From Bryobacteraceae bacterium (lineage in GTDB: Bacteria > Acidobacteriota > Terriglobia > Bryobacterales > Bryobacteraceae): a DNA stretch of 64,000 bases. The position numbers were made by a program, and so were the translations under genes. Positions within the stretch are counted from its first letter, which is position 1, and every line of letters begins with the position of its first letter. Location: assembly GCA_026002855.1 (NCBI GenBank), contig BPGD01000001.1, forward strand, positions 3,728,001-3,792,000. Reading direction: 5' to 3'. This document shows positions 1 to 10,350 of this stretch, piece after piece. Under the pieces are notes generated by a model. That model had not been told where the DNA came from and ran no database searches. It was given only the letters and a program-made list of their open reading frames with translations.

Positions 1-552
1 TTCGTAAGGCTTCGCGAACTGCTCGAGCGCAGCGGCCAGCCTCCGGAAGGCGGCTTTCGCCAAACGGTTGCTGCGGTTCAGCAGGCGCTGTACCCCGAGC
101 TGTGGCTCGACCGCGGGAAAGGAATCGTGACCGCTGGCGGCGTTGAAGTGCGCATGCGGCCTGCCGAGATGGCTTTTTATGCGATGATCGCCCGCGCCAG
201 CCGGCAGGGCCAGGGCGTGCATTGCCCCAGCGGCAGCGAGGATCAACCGCTGGCTCAGGCGTACTTGCAGGAATACGAGCAGTGCGCCGGAGGCCGCGAC
301 ATCGAGCGCACGCGCCGCGCCCTGAGACGCGGCATGGATCGCGAATATTTCCTCGAGCGGGTCTCCCGCGCCAACCGGGCACTGCGCGACGCGTTGGGGG
401 CGGAGCGCTCCTACGGGTTTGAGATCCAGTCCGTGGGCAGGCGAACGGAAACCGAATACCGGATCAGCGTCGCGCCGGACAGGATCCGCTTTGCCGGGGA
501 AAATTCCACTCCGCCGGCACAGGCTCACCCTGTGAGCCCGCGGCGGCAGTAG
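1..552 (+). CDS. CRISPR-associated protein, probable CARF/ring-nuclease (NE0113-type) family, C-terminal part
   Basis: The reading frame is open from base 1, so the start lies outside the window and about 183 C-terminal residues remain. An ATG-like start inside the window (about 127) is probably not real because the frame continues upstream with normal codon use. The last third (FLERVSRANRALRDALG, then a Y-x-I ... RxxxxY pattern) looks like the winged-helix-like tail that I recall from Cas_NE0113 / 'ring nuclease Csm6' proteins; this is from memory, not a search. If right, the missing N-terminal part would be a CARF domain that binds or cleaves cyclic oligoadenylate. It ends 22 bases before a CARF-HEPN gene and leads the type III operon on the same strand, which supports a CRISPR role. 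The last codons contain the perfect inverted repeat at 522-538. Confidence 0.55.
   Translation, partial: FVRLRELLERSGQPPEGGFRQTVAAVQQALYPELWLDRGKGIVTAGGVEVRMRPAEMAFYAMIARASRQGQGVHCPSGSEDQPLAQAYLQEYEQCAGGRDIERTRRALRRGMDREYFLERVSRANRALRDALGAERSYGFEIQSVGRRTETEYRISVAPDRIRFAGENSTPPAQAHPVSPRRQ
522..538. repeat. Palindrome GGCTCAC-CCT-GTGAGCC
   Basis: This is a perfect 7-bp inverted repeat with a 3-base loop, inside the last codons of the first gene. A near-identical element (CAGGCTCAC-GCT-GTGAGCCTG) lies at 60921-60941. No poly-T follows it, so it is not a typical intrinsic terminator. It may be a copy of a small dispersed palindromic element. Confidence 0.6.
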
Positions 553-574: not shown

Positions 575-1921
575 ATGAACCAGAATCCGCTCAGCCTTCC
601 GGGCAACGGCAAGGTGCTCGTGATGACCGTGGGCGAGGGCACCGTTGACAGGCTGGAGGAGACAATCGTCACGCCCTTCCGAAAATCCTTCGAGCAGGGC
701 GAGTGGCAATGCATCGTGCTGCTGCCTTCCCGGAAGACCGAGCCCAACGCGCGACTGCTGCAAGAGCGTTTCCCGCAATTCCCGCTTCAGGTGCGGGCGC
801 TACGGCAGGAGACAGAAGAAGACAACACCGATGCCTGCTTCCGTCACTTTGATGCGGTGATCGAACGGATGCTCGAACAAGGCTGGCAACGCGAAAACAT
901 CACCGCCGACGTCACCCGTGGGACCAAAGCGATGACGGCCGCCCTCGCGATGGCGGCGATGGCTCACCGCGTCGGCCAGATCCGCTACATCACCGGCGAG
1001 CGCGACAACCGTGGCATGGTGAGGCCTGGAACGGAAGTCATCGTGGACGTGCCGCCCCAGAAGGCGCTCGAGCGTCAGGACGTCAACCTGGCGGCGCAAT
1101 ATCTGAGAACCGGCAACTACCGCGCAGTGGAAGCGCTGTTTCCCGGAGCGCCGAGGCGTCTCTACGAGGGGCATTTGAGGGAGGAGATCCGCTGGCTCGC
1201 CTGGGCGGCCCAGTTCTGGGGCGCATGGGACCGTTTCGATTACAAGGAAGCGGCGCGGCTGGCCCAGCGCAACGGCATGCCGGCCAACCCGCCCGCGACC
1301 CTGCGCGACCTGCTGCCTGCGGCCGGGCAGCAGGTCGTCCTGCAAGTCCTTGCGGGACGTTCGGCGCCGGACTCCGACGACAATGTCGGCTACTGCCGTG
1401 CTCTCGCCGCCGACCTGCTGGCCAACGCCGGCCGCCGGCTGCGCGAAGGGCAAAACGAAGAAGTGCTGGTGCGCCTGTATCGCGTGCTCGAGCTGCTGGG
1501 CCAGATGCGGCTGTTCAGCCACGGCATCGACTCGGGCCGTACGGATGCTCGGGATGAAAGAGTCCGGGCATGGCTCGAAACTCTGCCGCCTCAGCGCAGG
1601 CCGGCACCCAACGAGGATGGGTTTCTCGAGCTGTCCCGCCAGAAGGCGGCCGAACTGCTGCATTTCATCGAAGAGAAATCCGGAAATGCCGGCGGGCTCG
1701 AAATCGCCGGGAAGCTCACGAACCTGGACTGGCTGGGCGACTGGGGGCCGACGATGCGCAACACAAGCGTGCTGATCCACGGCTTCCGTGCGCGGAGCCG
1801 GGGCAGGGAAGCAGAGCTCCGGAGTCTTCTCGAAAAACTGACGCAGCTTTATTCGGGCGAATCGGACGGCAACCCGGCGCTGCTGGCGGCTTGTCAATTC
1901 GGATTTCTGCGAGGCTTATGA
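575..1921 (+). CDS. Csm6-like CARF-HEPN ribonuclease, Cas02710 family (copy 1)
   Basis: This 448-residue protein has a CARF-type N-terminal domain with the strand MTVGEGT near residue 17 and the ligand-loop motif DVTRGTKAM at 112-120. The C-terminal half is helical and carries the HEPN motif R395-N-(x5)-H402 (RNTSVLIH). Family knowledge: Cas02710/TIGR02710 proteins accompany type III systems and are predicted to be switched on by cyclic oligoadenylate made by Cas10, then cut RNA non-specifically through HEPN. It is clearly homologous along its whole length to the gene at 9004-10350, with shared blocks FWGAWDRFDY, CRALAADLLANA and SHGID. A GAAGGAG-like site lies about 13 bases before the ATG. 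It sits upstream of cas6 on the same strand. Calling it Csm6-like is by architecture; substrate and ligand ring size are unknown. Confidence 0.88.
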   Translation: MNQNPLSLPGNGKVLVMTVGEGTVDRLEETIVTPFRKSFEQGEWQCIVLLPSRKTEPNARLLQERFPQFPLQVRALRQETEEDNTDACFRHFDAVIERMLEQGWQRENITADVTRGTKAMTAALAMAAMAHRVGQIRYITGERDNRGMVRPGTEVIVDVPPQKALERQDVNLAAQYLRTGNYRAVEALFPGAPRRLYEGHLREEIRWLAWAAQFWGAWDRFDYKEAARLAQRNGMPANPPATLRDLLPAAGQQVVLQVLAGRSAPDSDDNVGYCRALAADLLANAGRRLREGQNEEVLVRLYRVLELLGQMRLFSHGIDSGRTDARDERVRAWLETLPPQRRPAPNEDGFLELSRQKAAELLHFIEEKSGNAGGLEIAGKLTNLDWLGDWGPTMRNTSVLIHGFRARSRGREAELRSLLEKLTQLYSGESDGNPALLAACQFGFLRGL

Positions 1922-2036
1922 TGGCGGGGATGACAACGTTGTCGAAGTGGCATCGCAATGGACGGGAATGCTGTTGTCGTCATCAGAATCGGATAAATCA
2001 CGTAATGTCAGGGCGAAAAAATCTGAAAAAGAAAAC

Positions 2037-3038
2037 ATGCAGACCCTGGATGCTCTGAAGGAGCAGCCCGTGGTACAAAAAGAATCAATGCCGCTGACGG
2101 CGCAATTGCCAGGAGAATTTCCAGTCCGGCGCTTCCGCCTGCGCTTTGAGGCGGAGCAGCCCTATACGGTGCGCGGCTACCGGGGTTCGGCCTGGCGCGG
2201 CCTGTTCGGCATGGCGCTGAAAAACCTGGTCTGCATCACCCGGGACCGCGAGTGTGCCCCCTGCCTGGTGCGGGCGTCCTGTGCGTACCCGTATGTGTTT
2301 GAGACTCCCGCTGGTGTAGCCGAACCGGCGCCGTCGAGCGTCGAGCAGGCGCCCCATCCGTATGTGCTCGCACCAGAGCCGGAATGGCGTCCGCGCGAGG
2401 TGCGCGGAGAGACGGTAGACGTGACGCTGATCGGCCACGGCGTCGATCAGTGGCCCTACGTGGTCCATGCCCTCCGCCAGGGCGCCGAGCGGGGCATCGG
2501 CGCCGAACGCCTTCCGTTGCGGCTTCTCTCGGTGGAGGAGCAGACACCCGAGGGCGGCTGGCGCCGGTCGATGTCGCCCGAAGGCGTTCTGCTGGCGGGC
2601 CGGGCTTGGACGCCGGCTGCACCGCCCATGCCGGCGCGCATTCGGTTGCGCATCGAAACGCCCCTGCGCGTGCGCCGCGAGCAGGACCTGGTGGAGCCCG
2701 AACGCATGGGCCTGGACGAGTTCGTGGCGGCGCTGCTGCGGAGACTTGCACTGCTGAGCCGTTTCCATACGGAGACGCCATGGCGGCTCGATCATGCAGG
2801 GCTGCGCGAGCTCGCGCGCTCGGCGCGCGTCACGCGGCGGGAGCTGAAATGGCAGGACTGGACGCGATATTCCAGCCGGCAACAGCGAAAAATCCCGATG
2901 GGCGGCGTCGTCGGCAGCTACACGCTGGAAACCGCGGGACTGGAGCCGCTCTGGCCGCTGCTCTGGGCTGGCCAGTGGGCGCATGTCGGCAAAGGCGCCG
3001 TCATGGGTCTGGGAAGGTACACGGTGGAGGCGGCATGA
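2037..3038 (+). CDS. cas6: CRISPR pre-crRNA endoribonuclease Cas6
   Basis: A RAMP-fold protein of about 333 residues with the glycine-rich C-terminal signature HVGKGAVMGLGRY, typical of Cas6 (PF10040-like C-terminal domain). Cas6 cuts the CRISPR repeat in the precursor transcript to give crRNAs for the Csm complex. A four-cysteine patch near the N-terminus (CITRDRECAPCLVRASC) is seen in many Cas6 proteins of this branch. The start is uncertain: in-frame ATGs lie at 1947, 2037 and 2088, none with a good Shine-Dalgarno sequence. Homology-like sequence begins at FPVRRFRLRF just after the 2088 ATG, so 2088 is also possible. It lies between the first CARF-HEPN gene and cas10. There is no array in the window for it to process. 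Confidence 0.88.
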   Translation: MQTLDALKEQPVVQKESMPLTAQLPGEFPVRRFRLRFEAEQPYTVRGYRGSAWRGLFGMALKNLVCITRDRECAPCLVRASCAYPYVFETPAGVAEPAPSSVEQAPHPYVLAPEPEWRPREVRGETVDVTLIGHGVDQWPYVVHALRQGAERGIGAERLPLRLLSVEEQTPEGGWRRSMSPEGVLLAGRAWTPAAPPMPARIRLRIETPLRVRREQDLVEPERMGLDEFVAALLRRLALLSRFHTETPWRLDHAGLRELARSARVTRRELKWQDWTRYSSRQQRKIPMGGVVGSYTLETAGLEPLWPLLWAGQWAHVGKGAVMGLGRYTVEAA

Positions 3039-3146
3039 CCGGGCCGGCCGCAGGACGGTCATTCGTCTGCGGGGCCAGGCGCGGCATCCGCTGGCTGCTG
3101 AAAATCAGGTCATCGGGCAACGAAATGAGATGAGGATTTTCTTCCA

Positions 3147-5651
3147 ATGGCTGACGGAACCCCCACACTGACAGAAACGGCCCTGGGCGCATTTCTGCAC
3201 GATTCGGGCAAATTCTGGCAACGGGCGTATGGCGCGCAGCGGAATGCCGATCCGGAAGTCCAGAAGGTGGCCGAGTACGCGCTGCCAAAGACGGCGGACG
3301 GACGCCCTTCGCACATCCACGCCCTGTGGACCTGGCAATTCTTTCACTGGCTCGAAAAGGAGAATCTTTCCCTGCCCGGCGTCAACCGGGACCGTGTACG
3401 GAACCTCGCCGGCTATCATCACCGTCCCGGCGGCGGACCCGCGGAGGAAGCCGGCGTGCAGTGGTTGATTGCCGAGGCCGACCAGCTCGCCGCCGGCATG
3501 GACCGCGCCGCCCGTCAGGACGATGACATGGAGCAGACCGGCGCCTGGGACAAATTCATCCGCACGCCGATGATTTCGCCCTTTTCCTCCGTGTTTCTCG
3601 GCAAGGAGCTGGGCGAGGTTCCAAAAATGTTCCTGCCACTCGACCGGCTCGCCCCGGAGGCGGAGCTGGATCCGGCAGAGTCGCTCGACACCTCGGCCTG
3701 GCAGGAACGTTACCGGCACCTGCTCGCCCGCTTCCAGCAGGAGTTCCGTGCCCTGAGCCGCCTGCGCAGCGCCTGGTTGTTCCAGAGCAGCCTGAAGTCC
3801 CTTTGCGAGCGGTACTGGCACGCCGTGCCGTCTTCGACGAAGGATCAGCCCGACGTGTCGCTCTATGATCACAGCCGGGCCGTCGCCGCCATCGCCTCGG
3901 CGCTTTATCAGTGGCACGCGGCCAACGGCGGCATCACGAAAGAGTCCCTCGAGGCCGCACGTGAGGAAAACCGGTTCGTCTGGCTGCTCGGCGATCTCTC
4001 CGGCATTCAGTCTGCGCTGTTCCGGCTCCAGCACCAGCAGGTGCGCGGCGTGGCGCGCATCCTGCGCGCCCGCTCGTTTCTCATGTCGCTGATCACCGAG
4101 AGCGCCGCACTGGACCTGCTCTGGCGGCTTGGGTTGACGCCGTTTTCGCTGGTTCAGAATGCCGGCGGGCGGTTCCTGATTCTCGCCGGCAACGTGCCCC
4201 AGACGCGGCAGGCGCTGGAGGCCGTCCGCCGCGACGTGGAGCAGTGGATGCTCGAGCGATGGAACGGCGAATTGGGCCTTCACCTGTCAATCACTGCTCC
4301 CTTCAGCGGCGAGCTGTTCCGGCGCGAACGCTTCCATGAGATGTCCGCTCTCTGGTCCGAGGCGGCCGAACAGAGCAAGCAGCGGCCGTTTTCCACCTGC
4401 TACCAGCCCGTTCTCAGGCAGGAGAGGTTTCAATTCGGCGCCTGTCCCGCCTGTGGCATTCGCGCCGCGCGGGCCGAAGGGGGCGGCGAAGAGGCCTACT
4501 GCGGTCCGTGCGCGGAAGAACGCCGGCTCGGCGGAGACCTGCCGCGGCTGCACGCCATCGGCTGGTCGCGGCAGAGCATCGGCGACCCGGAGAAAAACCT
4601 GCGCCTGTGGAACGGACTTCACCTGCACTGGCACATCCGCGGCGTCGATCCCGGGGTGCTTGAGGAAGGTTTCCTCACCGGTCCGGCGCTCGATCCGCAA
4701 CTGCCTCTCGCCCTGCGGCACACCGGGCATTTCGTCCCGGTGCTCAAAGAAGAGGAGTTCGAAAAACTCCCCTACGCGAGGCATCTCAGCGAGGACGCCC
4801 GCCAGACCCGGCCGGGCGAAACGAAAACGTTCGAGCACATCGCCCTCGATGCGCTGGAAGTTGTCAACGGCAGGATTTATGGCGAGGACCTGCTCGCCGT
4901 CATCAAGGCCGACGTCGACCGGCTGGGGGCAATTTTTTCGCAGGGAGTCCAACAGCCGAGCCTCGGCCTTGTGGCAGGCCTCTCCCGCATGCTCGACTTT
5001 TTCTTCGCCGCCCGGCTGCCGCATCTTCTGCGGACCGACCCGCGCTTCCGCAGCACGTACGTCGTCTACGCGGGCGGCGACGACCTGCTTCTGATCGGCC
5101 CATGGCGGCAGTCCCTGGAACTGCTTGGCAAGCTTCAGGAGGCGTTCGCGCGCTACGTCGGCAGTCCGCAGATCACTCTTTCGGCCGCGCTTGAACTGGT
5201 CCATCCCGATGAGCCGCTGAACCGCAGTGTACGCGCCGCCGAAGAGCGGCTCGAACGCGCCAAGAACGCCGGCCGCAACCGCGTCTGCGCCGTGGACGAG
5301 GATCCGCTCCCCTGGGACCAGTTCCGGCGCCAGCTCGACTACGCGGAAAAGCTGCTCGACTGGATGCGCAAGGGCGAGCTCAGCCAGGGCTTCGTCTACC
5401 GGATGCTAGCCTTCGACCGCGACCGCATGGCCTGCCAGCGCGGCCGGGCCGACGCCAATGCCGCTTCCTGGCGGGCGCGGTGGGGATATCAGTTCCGCCG
5501 GAACCTGAAGATCCAGAACGTGGCCTCGAATCCGCTGGCTCAGTTCCTGAACAGTCTCTTTGGCCTGAACGCGCAGTTCGGCAAGGCGGCCCAGCCGCCT
5601 TCAGCGCGAACCGCGATTTCCGTGGCCGTTTACCGCAACCGATCCTTCTGA
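3147..5651 (+). CDS. cas10: Type III-A CRISPR large subunit Cas10/Csm1
   Basis: An 834-residue protein. An N-terminal HD nuclease motif is present (LHDSGK, H18-D19). A zinc-ribbon-like cluster follows (C433, C436, C452, C455). The cyclase palm domain carries the intact GGDD at 643-646, in the context VYAGGDDLLL. The C-terminal helical part corresponds to domain D4. Family knowledge: target RNA binding activates the HD domain to cut single-stranded DNA and the GGDD palm to convert ATP to cyclic oligoadenylate. Both active sites look intact, so signalling to the two CARF-HEPN genes is expected. The gene follows cas6 after 108 bases and precedes csm2 by 13. The length is normal for Csm1. Confidence 0.95.
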   Translation: MADGTPTLTETALGAFLHDSGKFWQRAYGAQRNADPEVQKVAEYALPKTADGRPSHIHALWTWQFFHWLEKENLSLPGVNRDRVRNLAGYHHRPGGGPAEEAGVQWLIAEADQLAAGMDRAARQDDDMEQTGAWDKFIRTPMISPFSSVFLGKELGEVPKMFLPLDRLAPEAELDPAESLDTSAWQERYRHLLARFQQEFRALSRLRSAWLFQSSLKSLCERYWHAVPSSTKDQPDVSLYDHSRAVAAIASALYQWHAANGGITKESLEAAREENRFVWLLGDLSGIQSALFRLQHQQVRGVARILRARSFLMSLITESAALDLLWRLGLTPFSLVQNAGGRFLILAGNVPQTRQALEAVRRDVEQWMLERWNGELGLHLSITAPFSGELFRRERFHEMSALWSEAAEQSKQRPFSTCYQPVLRQERFQFGACPACGIRAARAEGGGEEAYCGPCAEERRLGGDLPRLHAIGWSRQSIGDPEKNLRLWNGLHLHWHIRGVDPGVLEEGFLTGPALDPQLPLALRHTGHFVPVLKEEEFEKLPYARHLSEDARQTRPGETKTFEHIALDALEVVNGRIYGEDLLAVIKADVDRLGAIFSQGVQQPSLGLVAGLSRMLDFFFAARLPHLLRTDPRFRSTYVVYAGGDDLLLIGPWRQSLELLGKLQEAFARYVGSPQITLSAALELVHPDEPLNRSVRAAEERLERAKNAGRNRVCAVDEDPLPWDQFRRQLDYAEKLLDWMRKGELSQGFVYRMLAFDRDRMACQRGRADANAASWRARWGYQFRRNLKIQNVASNPLAQFLNSLFGLNAQFGKAAQPPSARTAISVAVYRNRSF

Positions 5652-5657
5652 AGGAGG
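5651..5657 (+). promoter_or_regulatory. Strong ribosome binding site of csm2
   Basis: AAGGAGG lies seven bases before the csm2 ATG at 5665. It is the best Shine-Dalgarno match in the cas operon and fixes the csm2 start. Confidence 0.8.
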
Positions 5658-5664
5658 TTAGACC

Positions 5665-6168
5665 ATGTCTGCACCCATTTCGCAAGGGAGAACCGGTGCG
5701 CAGGGCCCGCCCAATGCCGGCCCCGGCAAGAGCCCGCTTCCGGAGGTGAAGTATCACGACAACAACGGCAAGCTGCGGCCGGAACTGCTCGACGAAGAAG
5801 CCATGCAGGTGGGCAAAGCGCTGGCTGACGCCGGCCTCGAATCGGCCCAGTTGCGGCGCTTCTACGGCGACGTTCTCAGTCTGCGGCGCCGCTTCGAGAT
5901 CCGCTCCGCAGGAATGGAGCCTGACAAACAGGAGTCCGTGTTCGCCGACATCCTGCCGGAGTTCCGCATGCTCCGCGCCAAAGCATTCTACGCCAACAAG
6001 CGGAACGAGAGAATCCTGCCGGCTGTGATGAAAGACTTCATCCAGCGGCATGTAAACGCCGTCAAAAACGCAAAAGATTTCCTTGCGTTTTGCCGCCATT
6101 TCGAGGCGGTTGTGGCCTATCACTACGCCTTTGCCAAGAAGGAATCCATTCGGGGAGCAGCACGATGA
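5665..6168 (+). CDS. csm2: CRISPR type III-A small subunit Csm2
   Basis: A 167-residue, mainly helical, basic protein. The first 25 or so residues are Gly/Pro-rich and probably disordered. The rest matches the Csm2 pattern, with a helix ending LPEFRMLRAKAFYANKR followed by a helix containing FIQRHVNAV. Csm2 forms the inner filament of the Csm complex alongside the Csm3 backbone and contacts the crRNA-target duplex. It has a strong Shine-Dalgarno sequence and its stop overlaps the csm3 start by four bases (ATGA), which implies translational coupling and a fixed subunit ratio. Confidence 0.92.
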   Translation: MSAPISQGRTGAQGPPNAGPGKSPLPEVKYHDNNGKLRPELLDEEAMQVGKALADAGLESAQLRRFYGDVLSLRRRFEIRSAGMEPDKQESVFADILPEFRMLRAKAFYANKRNERILPAVMKDFIQRHVNAVKNAKDFLAFCRHFEAVVAYHYAFAKKESIRGAAR

Positions 6169-6905
6169 AACTGGTTCGCATCTATACGATTACAGGAACG
6201 ATTGAAACGGTCACCGGGCTCCACATCGGGGCAGGCAAGGACTCGATCGAAATCGGAGGAATGGACAACCCTGTCATCAAGCATCCACACACCGGTGAAC
6301 CCTACATCCCGGGCTCCAGCCTGAAGGGCAAGGTGCGAAGCCTGCTCGAGTGGGCGCTGCACAAGGTGGATCCCAAAGGCGAAGTCTGGGGCTCCAATAA
6401 GCAGACCAAGATTGACAATATCAACGAGGACGAGGTCCTGCGCATCTTCGGGACCACGCACGAAGACTGGAGCGGCGGTCCGACCCGCGTCTCGGTGCGG
6501 GACTGCCACCTGACCGAAGCCTGCCGGAAGGCGGTTCACGAGCGCGGCCTGCCATTCACGGAGGAAAAAACCGAGGTCGTCATCGACCGCATTCAGGGAA
6601 AAGCCGCCGGCAATATTGGCCCCCGCAAGACAGAGCGCGTTCCCGCGGGAATGGAATTCGACCTCGAGATCCAGTTCCGCGTGATTGATACGGGGGACGG
6701 CGGAAAGCGCGACATGCAGTGTCTGAACCGCCTCATCGAAGGGCTGAAACTCCTGGAAAAGGACGCGCTCGGCGGGTCCGGCAGCCGCGGCTACGGCAGA
6801 ATCCGCTTCAAAAACCTCGCCGTGGACGGCAAAAGCATTCAGGAGAAATTCGACGCCATCGGCGAGGTGAAAATCGACGCCCCGGCCATGATCGTGGAGG
6901 CGTGA
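6165..6905 (+). CDS. csm3: CRISPR type III-A backbone RNase Csm3
   Basis: This 246-residue RAMP protein has the canonical Csm3 N-terminus: GLHIGAGKDS, then GGMDNPVIKHP with the catalytic aspartate at D34, then PYIPGSSLKGKVRSLLEW. A glycine-rich GGSGSRGYGRI loop lies near the C-terminus. Csm3 lines the crRNA backbone in several copies and cuts target RNA every six nucleotides using this Asp. The ATG at 6165 is chosen because the Csm3 fold begins there and it overlaps the csm2 stop as ATGA. A longer in-frame extension from 6090 lies inside csm2 and is rejected. csm4 follows after two bases. Confidence 0.96.
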   Translation: MKLVRIYTITGTIETVTGLHIGAGKDSIEIGGMDNPVIKHPHTGEPYIPGSSLKGKVRSLLEWALHKVDPKGEVWGSNKQTKIDNINEDEVLRIFGTTHEDWSGGPTRVSVRDCHLTEACRKAVHERGLPFTEEKTEVVIDRIQGKAAGNIGPRKTERVPAGMEFDLEIQFRVIDTGDGGKRDMQCLNRLIEGLKLLEKDALGGSGSRGYGRIRFKNLAVDGKSIQEKFDAIGEVKIDAPAMIVEA

Positions 6906-6907
6906 GC

Positions 6908-7870
6908 ATGCCGGCCACGTACCGCATCCGGTTCCGGCTGGCGTCGCCGCTGGCCACGCCGCTGCATTCGGGGACTCTGTTCGGCAATCTGTGCTGGGCC
7001 TGGCGTTACCTGTATGGAGAGAAAAGTCTCGCCCAGTGGCTCTGCTCGCTCCCGGACGAACCGTTCCTGATTTCGGACGGCTTTCCCGCAGACATGCTGC
7101 CCCGGCCGCTGCTCAAGCCCACTGCCCCGCGCAGGCTTTCGCTTGAAGAGCTGCAACAGCAGAAGCAACTGAAAAAGCGCCGGCTGATCCCGCGCCGGAT
7201 GTTCCTCGAGCTGCGCCAAGCATTGAGTGAGGAATCCTTGCGCCTCAGGCTGGCTCAGCTCCAAAAGGAGGAAGAAGACAAGCGCGAGCGAAAGACAGAC
7301 AAGGAGCGTGAAAAAGAGGGCCGGGAGAGCTGGGTCCGCCTGCCGCACAACCGAATCCACCGCATCACGGGCCGCACGCCGCAGGAAGGCGGTCTCTTCT
7401 TCACCGAGGAACTGTGGGCCACCGGCCTGCGCCAGTACCGCGACGTCTACGTGCAGACGTCTCTGCCGCAGGACCAGCTCAAGAAACTCTTCGATCAGGT
7501 CGCCCGCTGGGGCTACGGCAAGGACGCCACCTGGGGCCGCGGCCGCTTTGATGGCATCGAGATCTTTCCCGAAAACGACGGTCTTTTCGATGCCAGCCTG
7601 CCGCGGGCCATGTCGCTGTCGCACGGCTCGCTGACCGCGAATATGGCCAACGCCCGGTATCAACTGGAGACGCATTACGGCAGGCTCGGGGGCGTGTATT
7701 CGGCCAATTCCTCGCCCTTCAAGTTTCCGCTGCTGTTGCTGAAGCCCGGAGCGACCTTCGACACGGGCGCCGGGCCCTTCGGCGAGCTTCTCCACGAGGT
7801 GCACCCTGCCATGCCCGCGGTGCGCCACAATGCATGGCACCTGTTCGTCACTTTCCGGGAGGCGGACTGA
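6908..7870 (+). CDS. csm4: CRISPR type III-A subunit Csm4
   Basis: A 320-residue RAMP protein starting with the Csm4-like FRLASPLATPLHSGTLFGNLCWA and carrying the glycine-rich motif DATWGRGRF about two thirds along. Csm4 caps the crRNA 5' handle and binds Cas10. Residues 119-141 are a highly charged Lys/Glu/Arg stretch that breaks the domain and is probably an exposed helical insertion. The ATG is two bases after the csm3 stop, and the stop shares one base with the csm5 ATG (TGATG). The longer in-frame ORF from 6719 runs inside csm3 and is not used. Confidence 0.93.
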   Translation: MPATYRIRFRLASPLATPLHSGTLFGNLCWAWRYLYGEKSLAQWLCSLPDEPFLISDGFPADMLPRPLLKPTAPRRLSLEELQQQKQLKKRRLIPRRMFLELRQALSEESLRLRLAQLQKEEEDKRERKTDKEREKEGRESWVRLPHNRIHRITGRTPQEGGLFFTEELWATGLRQYRDVYVQTSLPQDQLKKLFDQVARWGYGKDATWGRGRFDGIEIFPENDGLFDASLPRAMSLSHGSLTANMANARYQLETHYGRLGGVYSANSSPFKFPLLLLKPGATFDTGAGPFGELLHEVHPAMPAVRHNAWHLFVTFREAD

Positions 7871-8994
7871 TGGCAGTCTACACGTGCAGACTGATTCCTT
7901 TGACGCCGATCCACGTCGGCACGGGAGAAACGATCGCGCTCGAGGACTACTTCCTCGCCAACGGCAGGCTCACGCGCTTCCACCCGCCCGCGGTGCTCCG
8001 CGCGATGTCGGAGGCGGACCGGAAACGGTACCTGGCGCTGCTTGGCGGCGGGGACACGAACATGGGCGACGCGCTGAAGCTGCTGCGCCAATGCGCGCAG
8101 AAGACCCCTGACGCGTGGATATATTCCATCGAAGTAGGCCCCGCCTCGCGGCAGTCCCTGGCCGAAGCCCTCGACAGAATCGACACGCGGCGTGGCGAAG
8201 TGCATCCGCTGTTCTGGAACGAACTCACCCGGCAGGCCGTGCTGCCTGGCTCGGCCATCAAGGGCGCCCTCCGCACGGCGCTGCTGAGCGCAGCCGTGGC
8301 CGGCCGCCTGTCCAGAGATTCGCACTGGAAGCAGACCTGGGAAAAGAAGCTGTCTGGCGAGGATAACTCCAAAGCGCTCGCCCGCCAGGCTGAGGAACTG
8401 GAACGGGAGATTTTCCGCCGGAATGAAAGGGATCTCGAATGGGATCCCTTCCGCTTCATCAAGGTGAGCGACACGGCCGTGCCTGCCGAAATGGTCCGGC
8501 TGGACCGCGCCAGGCTGCTCCAGCAGGGTAAGGAAGACGGCGCCGCAGGCAAAATTCAGATGCATTTTGAGCGCACTCTTTCCGCGTCTGACAAAAGTCC
8601 CGCTCCGCAACTGGAATTCACGCTTGTGATCGAGAAAGACGAAAAGGCGTGGCATGAGGGAATCGGCCGGTACGTACAGGGCGTTCCCACGCGAGACTGG
8701 CTGCTCAAAAGCCTGAGGTTCCATTTCATTACTCGGGCCATCGGCGAGGCCAGGCGTTTCCCCTCGCTTTACTCAGACGTCTGGAAATCCTGGATCGAGC
8801 AGGCCAAACAGCCCAACTGCGCCCTCATCCGTCTGGGCCGCTTTTCCCACTTCGAGTCGCTTTCGGTGGAGGGGCTCCGCCGCACCCTGGACCGGCGCGA
8901 CCGGTGGATCACCGAGGGAACCTCACGCACCTACTGCACGCCGGACGGCACGAGCAAGATGCCCTTCGGCTGGGCGTTGCTCCAGCTCGTCTGA
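7870..8994 (+). CDS. csm5: CRISPR type III-A subunit Csm5
   Basis: A 374-residue RAMP protein. The N-terminus reads LIPLTPIHVGTGE, the usual first RAMP strand, followed by the Csm5 signature VLPGSAIKGALRTALL near residue 130. Csm5 caps the 3' end of the crRNA in the Csm complex and recruits trimming nucleases. Its ATG overlaps the csm4 stop by one base. The second Cas02710 gene starts nine bases after its stop, so all nine genes from the left edge probably share one transcript. Confidence 0.93.
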   Translation: MAVYTCRLIPLTPIHVGTGETIALEDYFLANGRLTRFHPPAVLRAMSEADRKRYLALLGGGDTNMGDALKLLRQCAQKTPDAWIYSIEVGPASRQSLAEALDRIDTRRGEVHPLFWNELTRQAVLPGSAIKGALRTALLSAAVAGRLSRDSHWKQTWEKKLSGEDNSKALARQAEELEREIFRRNERDLEWDPFRFIKVSDTAVPAEMVRLDRARLLQQGKEDGAAGKIQMHFERTLSASDKSPAPQLEFTLVIEKDEKAWHEGIGRYVQGVPTRDWLLKSLRFHFITRAIGEARRFPSLYSDVWKSWIEQAKQPNCALIRLGRFSHFESLSVEGLRRTLDRRDRWITEGTSRTYCTPDGTSKMPFGWALLQLV

Positions 8995-9003
8995 ACGAAC
9001 ATC

Positions 9004-10350
9004 ATGCCGGATCCCTGCTCCGTACTGCTGCTGACCGTTGGCACCGGCACCCGCGACCGGCCGGTGGAGACGATCCTTGAACCCTTCCGGAAATCGCTCG
9101 AGGCCGCGCAGGCGGAACGAAACATTCTGCTGCCCTCCCAGGAGACCGTGGCGGTGGCCCGGATGATTCAGGATCGGCTGCCTCAATTCCACATGGAGAT
9201 CCATCCCCTGCCCGCCGCCGGCGATGAGAACAACGCCGACCGCTGCTTCGCTCACTACGATGCCGTTCTCGCCGCGCTGCTCGCCGCGGGCGCGGATCCG
9301 AACACGATCGTCGCGGATATTACGCGGGGCACCAAGGCGATGTCGGCGGCGCTGCTGATGGCCGCCGCCGCGCGCGGCGTGCGGCGGGTCCGCTACCTGG
9401 TGGGCGAACAGCGCGATCAGAGCGGCATGGCGGTGGCTGGCACGGAAAACGTCAGCGACATCGAACCCGCCTTTATCTTCTTCCGCCAGACGCTCAGCCG
9501 TGCGCAGGACCTGCTGCGGGCGGGCGACTTTCGGGCCGTCGAGCGCCTGCTTGCACCGCTGCTGCCCGGCCCGGCCCGCCCCAGAGACAGCTTTCAGAGC
9601 GAGGCCGCCGTGCTCCAATGGGCCGCCCGCTTCTGGGGCGCCTGGGACCGGTTTGATTACGCGCACGCCAGACGGCTCTCGCAGGAGGCCCCTTCGGAGA
9701 ACGAGGCGCTGATCACCGAATGGGCCCCGTCTCTCGAGCAGCAGAACCTGCTTGCGCGGCTCGCCGCGCCGCTGCCGGTGTCGATGGGGGATCGTGTCAA
9801 ACACTGCCGCGCACTGGCCGCGGATCTGCTGGCCAACGCGGAACGGAGGCTGGAAGAAGGCCGGCACGAAGAGGTGCTGGTGCGCGTGTCCCGGATCGTC
9901 GAACTGATGACCACTTACAGGCTGTACAGCCACGGCATCGACGCGGAGAAAATCAAAAGAGACGATCCAACGGTGCAGGAGTGGCTCCGCTCATCGGCAA
10001 ATTCCAGGGCGTCCGGGCCTCACCCGTCCCGTGCGCTTGGCCGCAAAAACGCTACTGAGCTGCTACTGTTTCTCGAAAAGAAGAAGCACCCAACTTCCCG
10101 CGGCGTGAGGATCGCGGAAAAACTCGCAGACACGAAGAGCTGGCTGGGCGAAAACGACGCGGGATTGCGCAATGGCTCCATTTTGATCCACGGCCTGTCC
10201 AGTACGGCCGCCGGTATCGCGGAAAAAATGCCGGACATCCTCAGAAAATTGCGGGATTTTTTCTACGAAGAACACGAAAAAAACCGGGACCTCCACCTGG
10301 CGGCCCGTTTCCCATTCCTCGTTTTGAGAGACGCTGTGCGGGGCGCCTGA
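9004..10350 (+). CDS. Csm6-like CARF-HEPN ribonuclease, Cas02710 family (copy 2)
   Basis: A 448-residue protein, the same length as the copy at 575-1921 and homologous throughout. The CARF loop motif DITRGTKAM lies at 105-113 and the HEPN motif R389-N-(x5)-H396 (RNGSILIH) near the C-terminus. It is predicted to bind cyclic oligoadenylate and cut RNA. The N-terminal strand LLLTVGTGTRDRPVETI matches the first copy closely, while the region around residues 160-240 is more divergent. It follows csm5 by nine bases with no clear Shine-Dalgarno sequence, so it is probably translated by coupling. It is the last gene of the cas operon; the next gene is convergent. Confidence 0.88.
   Translation: MPDPCSVLLLTVGTGTRDRPVETILEPFRKSLEAAQAERNILLPSQETVAVARMIQDRLPQFHMEIHPLPAAGDENNADRCFAHYDAVLAALLAAGADPNTIVADITRGTKAMSAALLMAAAARGVRRVRYLVGEQRDQSGMAVAGTENVSDIEPAFIFFRQTLSRAQDLLRAGDFRAVERLLAPLLPGPARPRDSFQSEAAVLQWAARFWGAWDRFDYAHARRLSQEAPSENEALITEWAPSLEQQNLLARLAAPLPVSMGDRVKHCRALAADLLANAERRLEEGRHEEVLVRVSRIVELMTTYRLYSHGIDAEKIKRDDPTVQEWLRSSANSRASGPHPSRALGRKNATELLLFLEKKKHPTSRGVRIAEKLADTKSWLGENDAGLRNGSILIHGLSSTAAGIAEKMPDILRKLRDFFYEEHEKNRDLHLAARFPFLVLRDAVRGA

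Follow-up and report, generated by a model that had tools for sequence, protein, structure and literature searches.

Why should a single type III-A CRISPR operon keep two full-length Csm6-family RNases, one on either side of its interference genes? This question is raised by a locus of a Bryobacteraceae bacterium (source genome, G000), for which a window of 64 kb (G000:C1:3728001-3792000) inside the complete 4.44 Mb chromosome was analyzed. The operon has the order cas2'-cas1-cas1'-cas2-CARF5-csm6A-cas6-cas10-csm2-csm3-csm4-csm5-csm6B and covers G000:C1:3724996-3738350, thereby starting about 3.6 kb upstream of the first csm6 copy (copy A) and beyond the left edge of the window (Table 1). The original prediction of two 448-residue proteins bracketing cas6-cas10-csm2-csm3-csm4-csm5 was borne out, as both reading frames are present and the genes between them were identified via NCBIfam, Pfam or PADLOC models. 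The type III-A set is complete, with TIGR02578, TIGR01870, TIGR02582, TIGR01903 and TIGR01899 (NCBIfam; cas10/csm1 and csm2-csm5) all above cut-off. The pair had also been placed at both ends of the operon, which holds for copy B; at the other end, five same-strand genes (cas2', cas1, cas1', cas2 and CARF5/NE0113), separated by no more than 40 bp, precede copy A, which starts 22 bp past the end of the CARF5 protein. Therefore, only the interference genes, and not the operon as a whole, are enclosed by the pair, and copy A is internal. For the CARF5 protein, no sequence match was found in the PDB.

Table 1. Features of the type III-A operon; positions refer to the 64-kb window.
Feature	Position	Strand	Remarks
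cas2'	upstream of window	+ (same strand as csm6A)	94 aa
cas1	upstream of window	+	327 aa
cas1', diverged Cas1-like	upstream of window	+	249 aa; best match PADLOC 'Cas1, diverged variant, second in the loci'
cas2	upstream of window	+	105 aa
CARF5 / NE0113-family (PF09623) protein, C-terminal part	1..552	+	full length 400 aa, start 650 bp before window
csm6A, copy A, CARF-6H/HTH-HEPN Csm6-family RNase	575..1921	+	TIGR02710
cas6, crRNA-processing endoribonuclease	1947..3038	+	library models
cas10/csm1	3147..5651	+	HD at residue 18, GGDD cyclase motif at residue 643
csm2	5665..6168	+	library models
csm3 (Cas7), 246 aa	6165..6905	+	library models
csm4 (Cas5)	6908..7870	+	start = first in-frame ATG after csm3
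csm5	7834..8994	+	library models
csm6B, copy B, second Csm6-family RNase	9004..10350	+	TIGR02710; begins 9 bp 3' of csm5

Both copies consist of 448 codons and share 43% identity across an alignment of 447 positions (E 2e-90). Their assignment to the Cas02710-type family was confirmed by scores above the cut-offs of TIGR02710 (101.7 bits for A and 89.7 bits for B; cut-off 83.9) and PF09670 (57.4 and 57.0 bits; cut-off 27). As predicted, the CARF loop D-x-TRGTKAM is found in A and B alike, and both carry the HEPN motif R-N-X5-H (R-X6-H), at R395-N-X5-H402 in A and R389-N-X5-H396 in B, within the same architecture of CARF domain, 6H/HTH linker and HEPN domain. Both copies are thus full-length, undecayed Csm6-type effectors within one III-A operon. 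The claim that they differ most around residues 160-240 did not hold: identity there is 35-50%, and the lowest values lie in the blocks 321-360 (22%), 401-440 (28%) and 41-80 (32%).

The same operon order, and with it the bracketing for which a check of neighbouring genomes had been proposed, was found in two further genomes of the genus, G149 (L051) and G165 (L052 = JANWVO010000032.1, Bryobacteraceae isolate SKYG119; also L040); a contig scan recovered only two genus relatives, the same two as the genome search. In G089, the left half of the operon is present up to a contig end within cas6, and the assembly yielded no Cas10. In G109 of the same genus, neither the csm6 pair nor this Cas10 had a match. 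Within the family, only single csm6 copies were found in other genera, located 3' of csm5 in G181 and G474 and 3' of cas2 in G036. Among 396 sampled genomes of the phylum, 17 contained TIGR02710, and a second match occurred only in the source genome and in G570, where it is a tandem partial one. No relatives were found in plasmid and phage records at the limits used.

In the phylogenetic tree, the copies of the three paired genomes form a copy A clade (support 98/96) and a copy B clade (support 100/100), and a third, unlinked TIGR02710 protein of the source genome (G000:C1:2196715) falls elsewhere. Between orthologs, pN/pS ranges from 0.32 to 0.50 for A and from 0.37 to 0.38 for B; synonymous sites are close to saturation. 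The separate, well-supported clades together with the recurring gene order show the pair to be an ancient duplicate maintained by purifying selection, and the duplication is older than the divergence of the paired genomes sampled. A recent tandem duplication or decay is rejected in view of the deep separation of the A and B clades and of purifying selection in the ortholog pairs. Topology tests also rejected the idea that two systems had merged, one like that of G036 supplying A and one like that of G181 supplying B (A with G036, p-AU 0.0004; B with G181, p-AU 0.007). Of the remaining pairings, A with G181 was rejected (p-AU 0.02) and B with G036 was borderline (p-AU 0.055); for the single-copy protein of G474, these tests do not separate a grouping with A from one with B.

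One of the paired genomes bears directly on the question of whether A and B depend on each other. In G149, copy B is split by a 405-aa transposase ORF (L051:15808-17025) that separates a frame of 106 codons from one of 357 codons; copy A as well as the remaining operon genes are open. The transposase is presumably of the IS4 type. The insert is flanked on both sides by GCCTCCGGGGC, which is consistent with a target-site duplication. Since A is kept in G149 despite the broken B, its retention is independent of B, which argues against an obligate heterodimer. A heterodimer of A and B with an asymmetric ligand pocket has a precedent in the fused Csm6-2, in which two different CARF-HEPN halves form an asymmetric pocket that prefers cA5 (PMC13187428). 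However, other genera manage with a single copy, and Csm6 and Csm6' of S. thermophilus are each homodimeric (PMC10702470), so that together with the G149 case we regard such a heterodimer as very unlikely.

The GGDD cyclase motif of Cas10 is intact in the source genome and in both paired relatives, and Cas10 is therefore predicted from its sequence to be able to make cyclic oligoadenylate. No CRISPR array is found near the operon in the source genome; in G149, an array of 29 repeats adjoins it. The G149 repeat, with one substitution, makes up a 286-repeat array of the source genome at 3395231-3416445 (a pattern scan for the repeat with up to three mismatches gave 287). The array lies about 309 kb ahead of the operon, contains 283 spacers, of which 278 are distinct, and is likely the guide source for the operon.

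For the ligand, PDB searches with single sequences gave nothing useful, while a profile of 30 relatives matched T. thermophilus HB8 Csm6 (TtCsm6; 5fsh, 8jbb, 8jbc, 8jh1) over its full length with E ~9e-31; the same profile matched the cA4 ring nuclease Sso2081 with E ~5e-7 and the cA6-type E. italicus Csm6 with E 0.095. Structure prediction and alignment, which had been proposed as a check, showed that both copies resemble TtCsm6, with the divergence maximum elsewhere than proposed as described above. The AlphaFold2 models (mean pLDDT 90.4 for A and 90.9 for B) match the CARF-HTH(6H)-HEPN structures of TtCsm6 over 385-398 residues with Z 17-20, and the best solved structure for both is the cA4-bound 8jh1 (Z 19.0 and 19.8, ~390 residues). 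S. thermophilus Csm6' and E. italicus Csm6 come close behind, with Z 17.8/17.9 and 17.6/18.5 for the cA6-type proteins, so that the fold alone leaves the ligand unfixed and Z-scores of these models give only a weak distinction between cA4-type and cA6-type Csm6.

In TtCsm6, cA4 is bound by K137 and T81, Y161 and N164 are required to cleave it, E179 is part of a loop relaying binding, and E332 latches the catalytic R415 at rest, while R415, N416 and H422 cut RNA (PMC10897365). By alignment, A and B both retain T133, G135, K137, Y161, E179, E332, R415, N416 and H422, thereby including the T-x-G-x-K motif, and T81 is replaced by S in both. Differences from TtCsm6 are also evident: A and B are only ~20% identical to it, the mobile loop appears to be another one, with sequence-alignment mismatches in both copies at Y167, R172 and R173 as well as at N164, and motif-I (T59/S60) aligns in shifted position across a 9-residue insertion. 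Above all from the CARF motif, which is of the TtCsm6/Crn1 type, we infer that A and B are both cA4-activated, self-limiting RNases.

It had been suggested that the two proteins might instead answer different cyclic oligoadenylates, and an identity of 43% with fixed differences, with 33 group-specific positions of which many fall within the CARF domain, could be read in this way. Yet both copies share the cA4-type CARF motif and the equivalents of Y161, K137 and E179, and among 1,113 type III loci the effectors of one locus nearly always share their activator, different cyclic oligoadenylate activators being very rare together (PMC11229360). This reading is thus disfavoured and, of those weighed here, the least probable.

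We consider it probable that the locus is a III-A operon with two anciently duplicated TtCsm6-type effectors that act as separate homodimers on one messenger, most likely cA4. A crRNA-guided Csm complex would bind a foreign transcript, upon which the GGDD palm of Cas10 would make this messenger, a cyclic oligoadenylate. By binding to the CARF dimer in each Csm6, the ring would switch on the HEPN RNase, and cleavage of the ring by the CARF domain would let each Csm6 inactivate itself. With A and B as separate homodimers answering the same messenger, two copies could make the response redundant, for instance where an inhibitor hits one of them, and/or differ in activation and shut-off kinetics. 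The homodimers Csm6 and Csm6' of S. thermophilus, which are 34% identical, are both activated by cA6 with differing sensitivity, and anti-CRISPR escape, a wider kinetic range or redundancy have been offered as reasons for keeping them (PMC10702470). By analogy, the same three reasons would fit the A/B pair, and the graded responses of the original prediction are plausible, having likewise been put forward for the S. thermophilus pair.

The two copies might nevertheless differ in how they respond. Among positions at which 85% or more of the 23 outgroup homologs agree, the equivalent of A Q310 (TtCsm6 Q336) was the one where B alone departs throughout, with Q in 4/4 A rows and 23/23 other homologs and T in 3/3 B rows. 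In addition, the equivalent of A Y302 is S in B of the source genome only; all remaining rows carry Y, including those of the other two B proteins. Both sites lie on the HEPN helix bearing the E332 equivalent, within one or two helical turns of that E. As B replaces an otherwise invariant HEPN glutamine, it may be specialised, and the Q-to-T change could tune its activation. A division of labour on the same ligand, with A as the main RNase and B, its HEPN attenuated or differently gated, acting mainly as a ring nuclease or slower RNase, would fit these changes close to the glutamate that latches the catalytic arginine in TtCsm6 (E332; PMC10897365), and likewise the IS-broken B beside an intact A in G149. 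However, B keeps R, N, H and the latch E, its orthologs are under purifying selection, Q-to-T does not necessarily mean weaker catalysis, and the Y-to-S change is confined to the source genome; we therefore hold this division of labour to be possible but rather unlikely. With similarly low probability, B may have been re-purposed, the loss of the glutamine altering the activation latch so that one messenger would act on two Csm6 with different RNase activity or self-shut-off. An example of such divergence within one III-A operon would be a fast RNase combined with a messenger sink or timer.

The favoured reading of two homodimers on one messenger can be set beside known systems. III-A systems with two Csm6 are already known from S. 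thermophilus, where two diverged paralogs accompany one Csm complex (34% identity there, 43% here; PMC10702470); theirs are activated by cA6 and encoded together beside the cas genes, whereas the present case is set apart by a cA4-type CARF and by having one copy on either side of the interference genes. Csm6-2 likewise consists of duplicated, diverged CARF-HEPN units (PMC11229360, PMC13187428), but as a fused CARF-HEPN-CARF-HEPN chain with an asymmetric pocket (cA6/cA5) in type III-D loci. The original prediction had asked whether the pair might be a fixed arrangement already described: it is fixed in at least three genomes of the genus, and dual Csm6 is known as such, while the exact flanking layout was not found in the literature searched (open-licence papers only). 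We know of no such flanking csm6 pair in T. thermophilus.

The locus thus adds a second lineage that retains two Csm6 paralogs in one III-A operon; it is distant from Streptococcus, and its CARF is of the cA4 type. With a second dual-Csm6 lineage, the question of why two Csm6 are kept becomes testable by comparison, for which the natural relative with a broken B and the single fixed B-specific substitution offer starting points.

The 286-repeat CRISPR array, which comprises 283 spacers (278 distinct), carries a repeat matching that of the array adjoining the operon in the genus relative G149. Adjoining the 75-copy array are a further Cas1, encoded in a 620-aa frame, and a Cas2-like match. Further Cas-related sequences were detected elsewhere in the chromosome: one of the two additional Cas10-type genes has csm3- and csm5-like neighbors, and the two partial Cas1-family matches score identically and may represent copies of a single repeated element.

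No homolog of the III-A operon's cas genes was seen within the 20 kb surrounding the third TIGR02710 gene of the source chromosome. A relative of this protein is present in a second genus relative (G165:C50:86753). In G149, the insertion in csm6B is flanked by an 11-bp sequence repeated at its two ends.

Locations of the features (G000:C1, source chromosome; L, extracted DNA stretches)
Feature	Coordinates	Stretch	Remark
cas2'-cas1-cas1'-cas2 adaptation block	G000:C1:3724996-3727309	L004:11997-14310	~3.0 to 0.7 kb upstream of window
Additional Cas10-type genes	G000:C1:2887038; 3639720		same chromosome as operon
Partial Cas1-family matches	G000:C1:227666-228124; 4320491-4320949		
Third TIGR02710 CARF-HEPN protein	G000:C1:2196715-2197866	L001	unlinked to operon
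CRISPR array, 286 repeats	G000:C1:3395231-3416445	L098, L099	309 kb from operon
Second CRISPR array, 75 copies	G000:C1:3092519-3097930	L018	different 36-nt repeat
Transposase-bearing insertion within csm6B of G149		L051:15808-17025	

The adaptation block encodes two Cas2 proteins and, besides Cas1, the cas1' product, a diverged Cas1 from which the Cas1 catalytic residues appear to be missing. The same block was also found in four other genomes (G149, G165, G089, and G222), and it is conceivable that its products form a heteromeric integrase.
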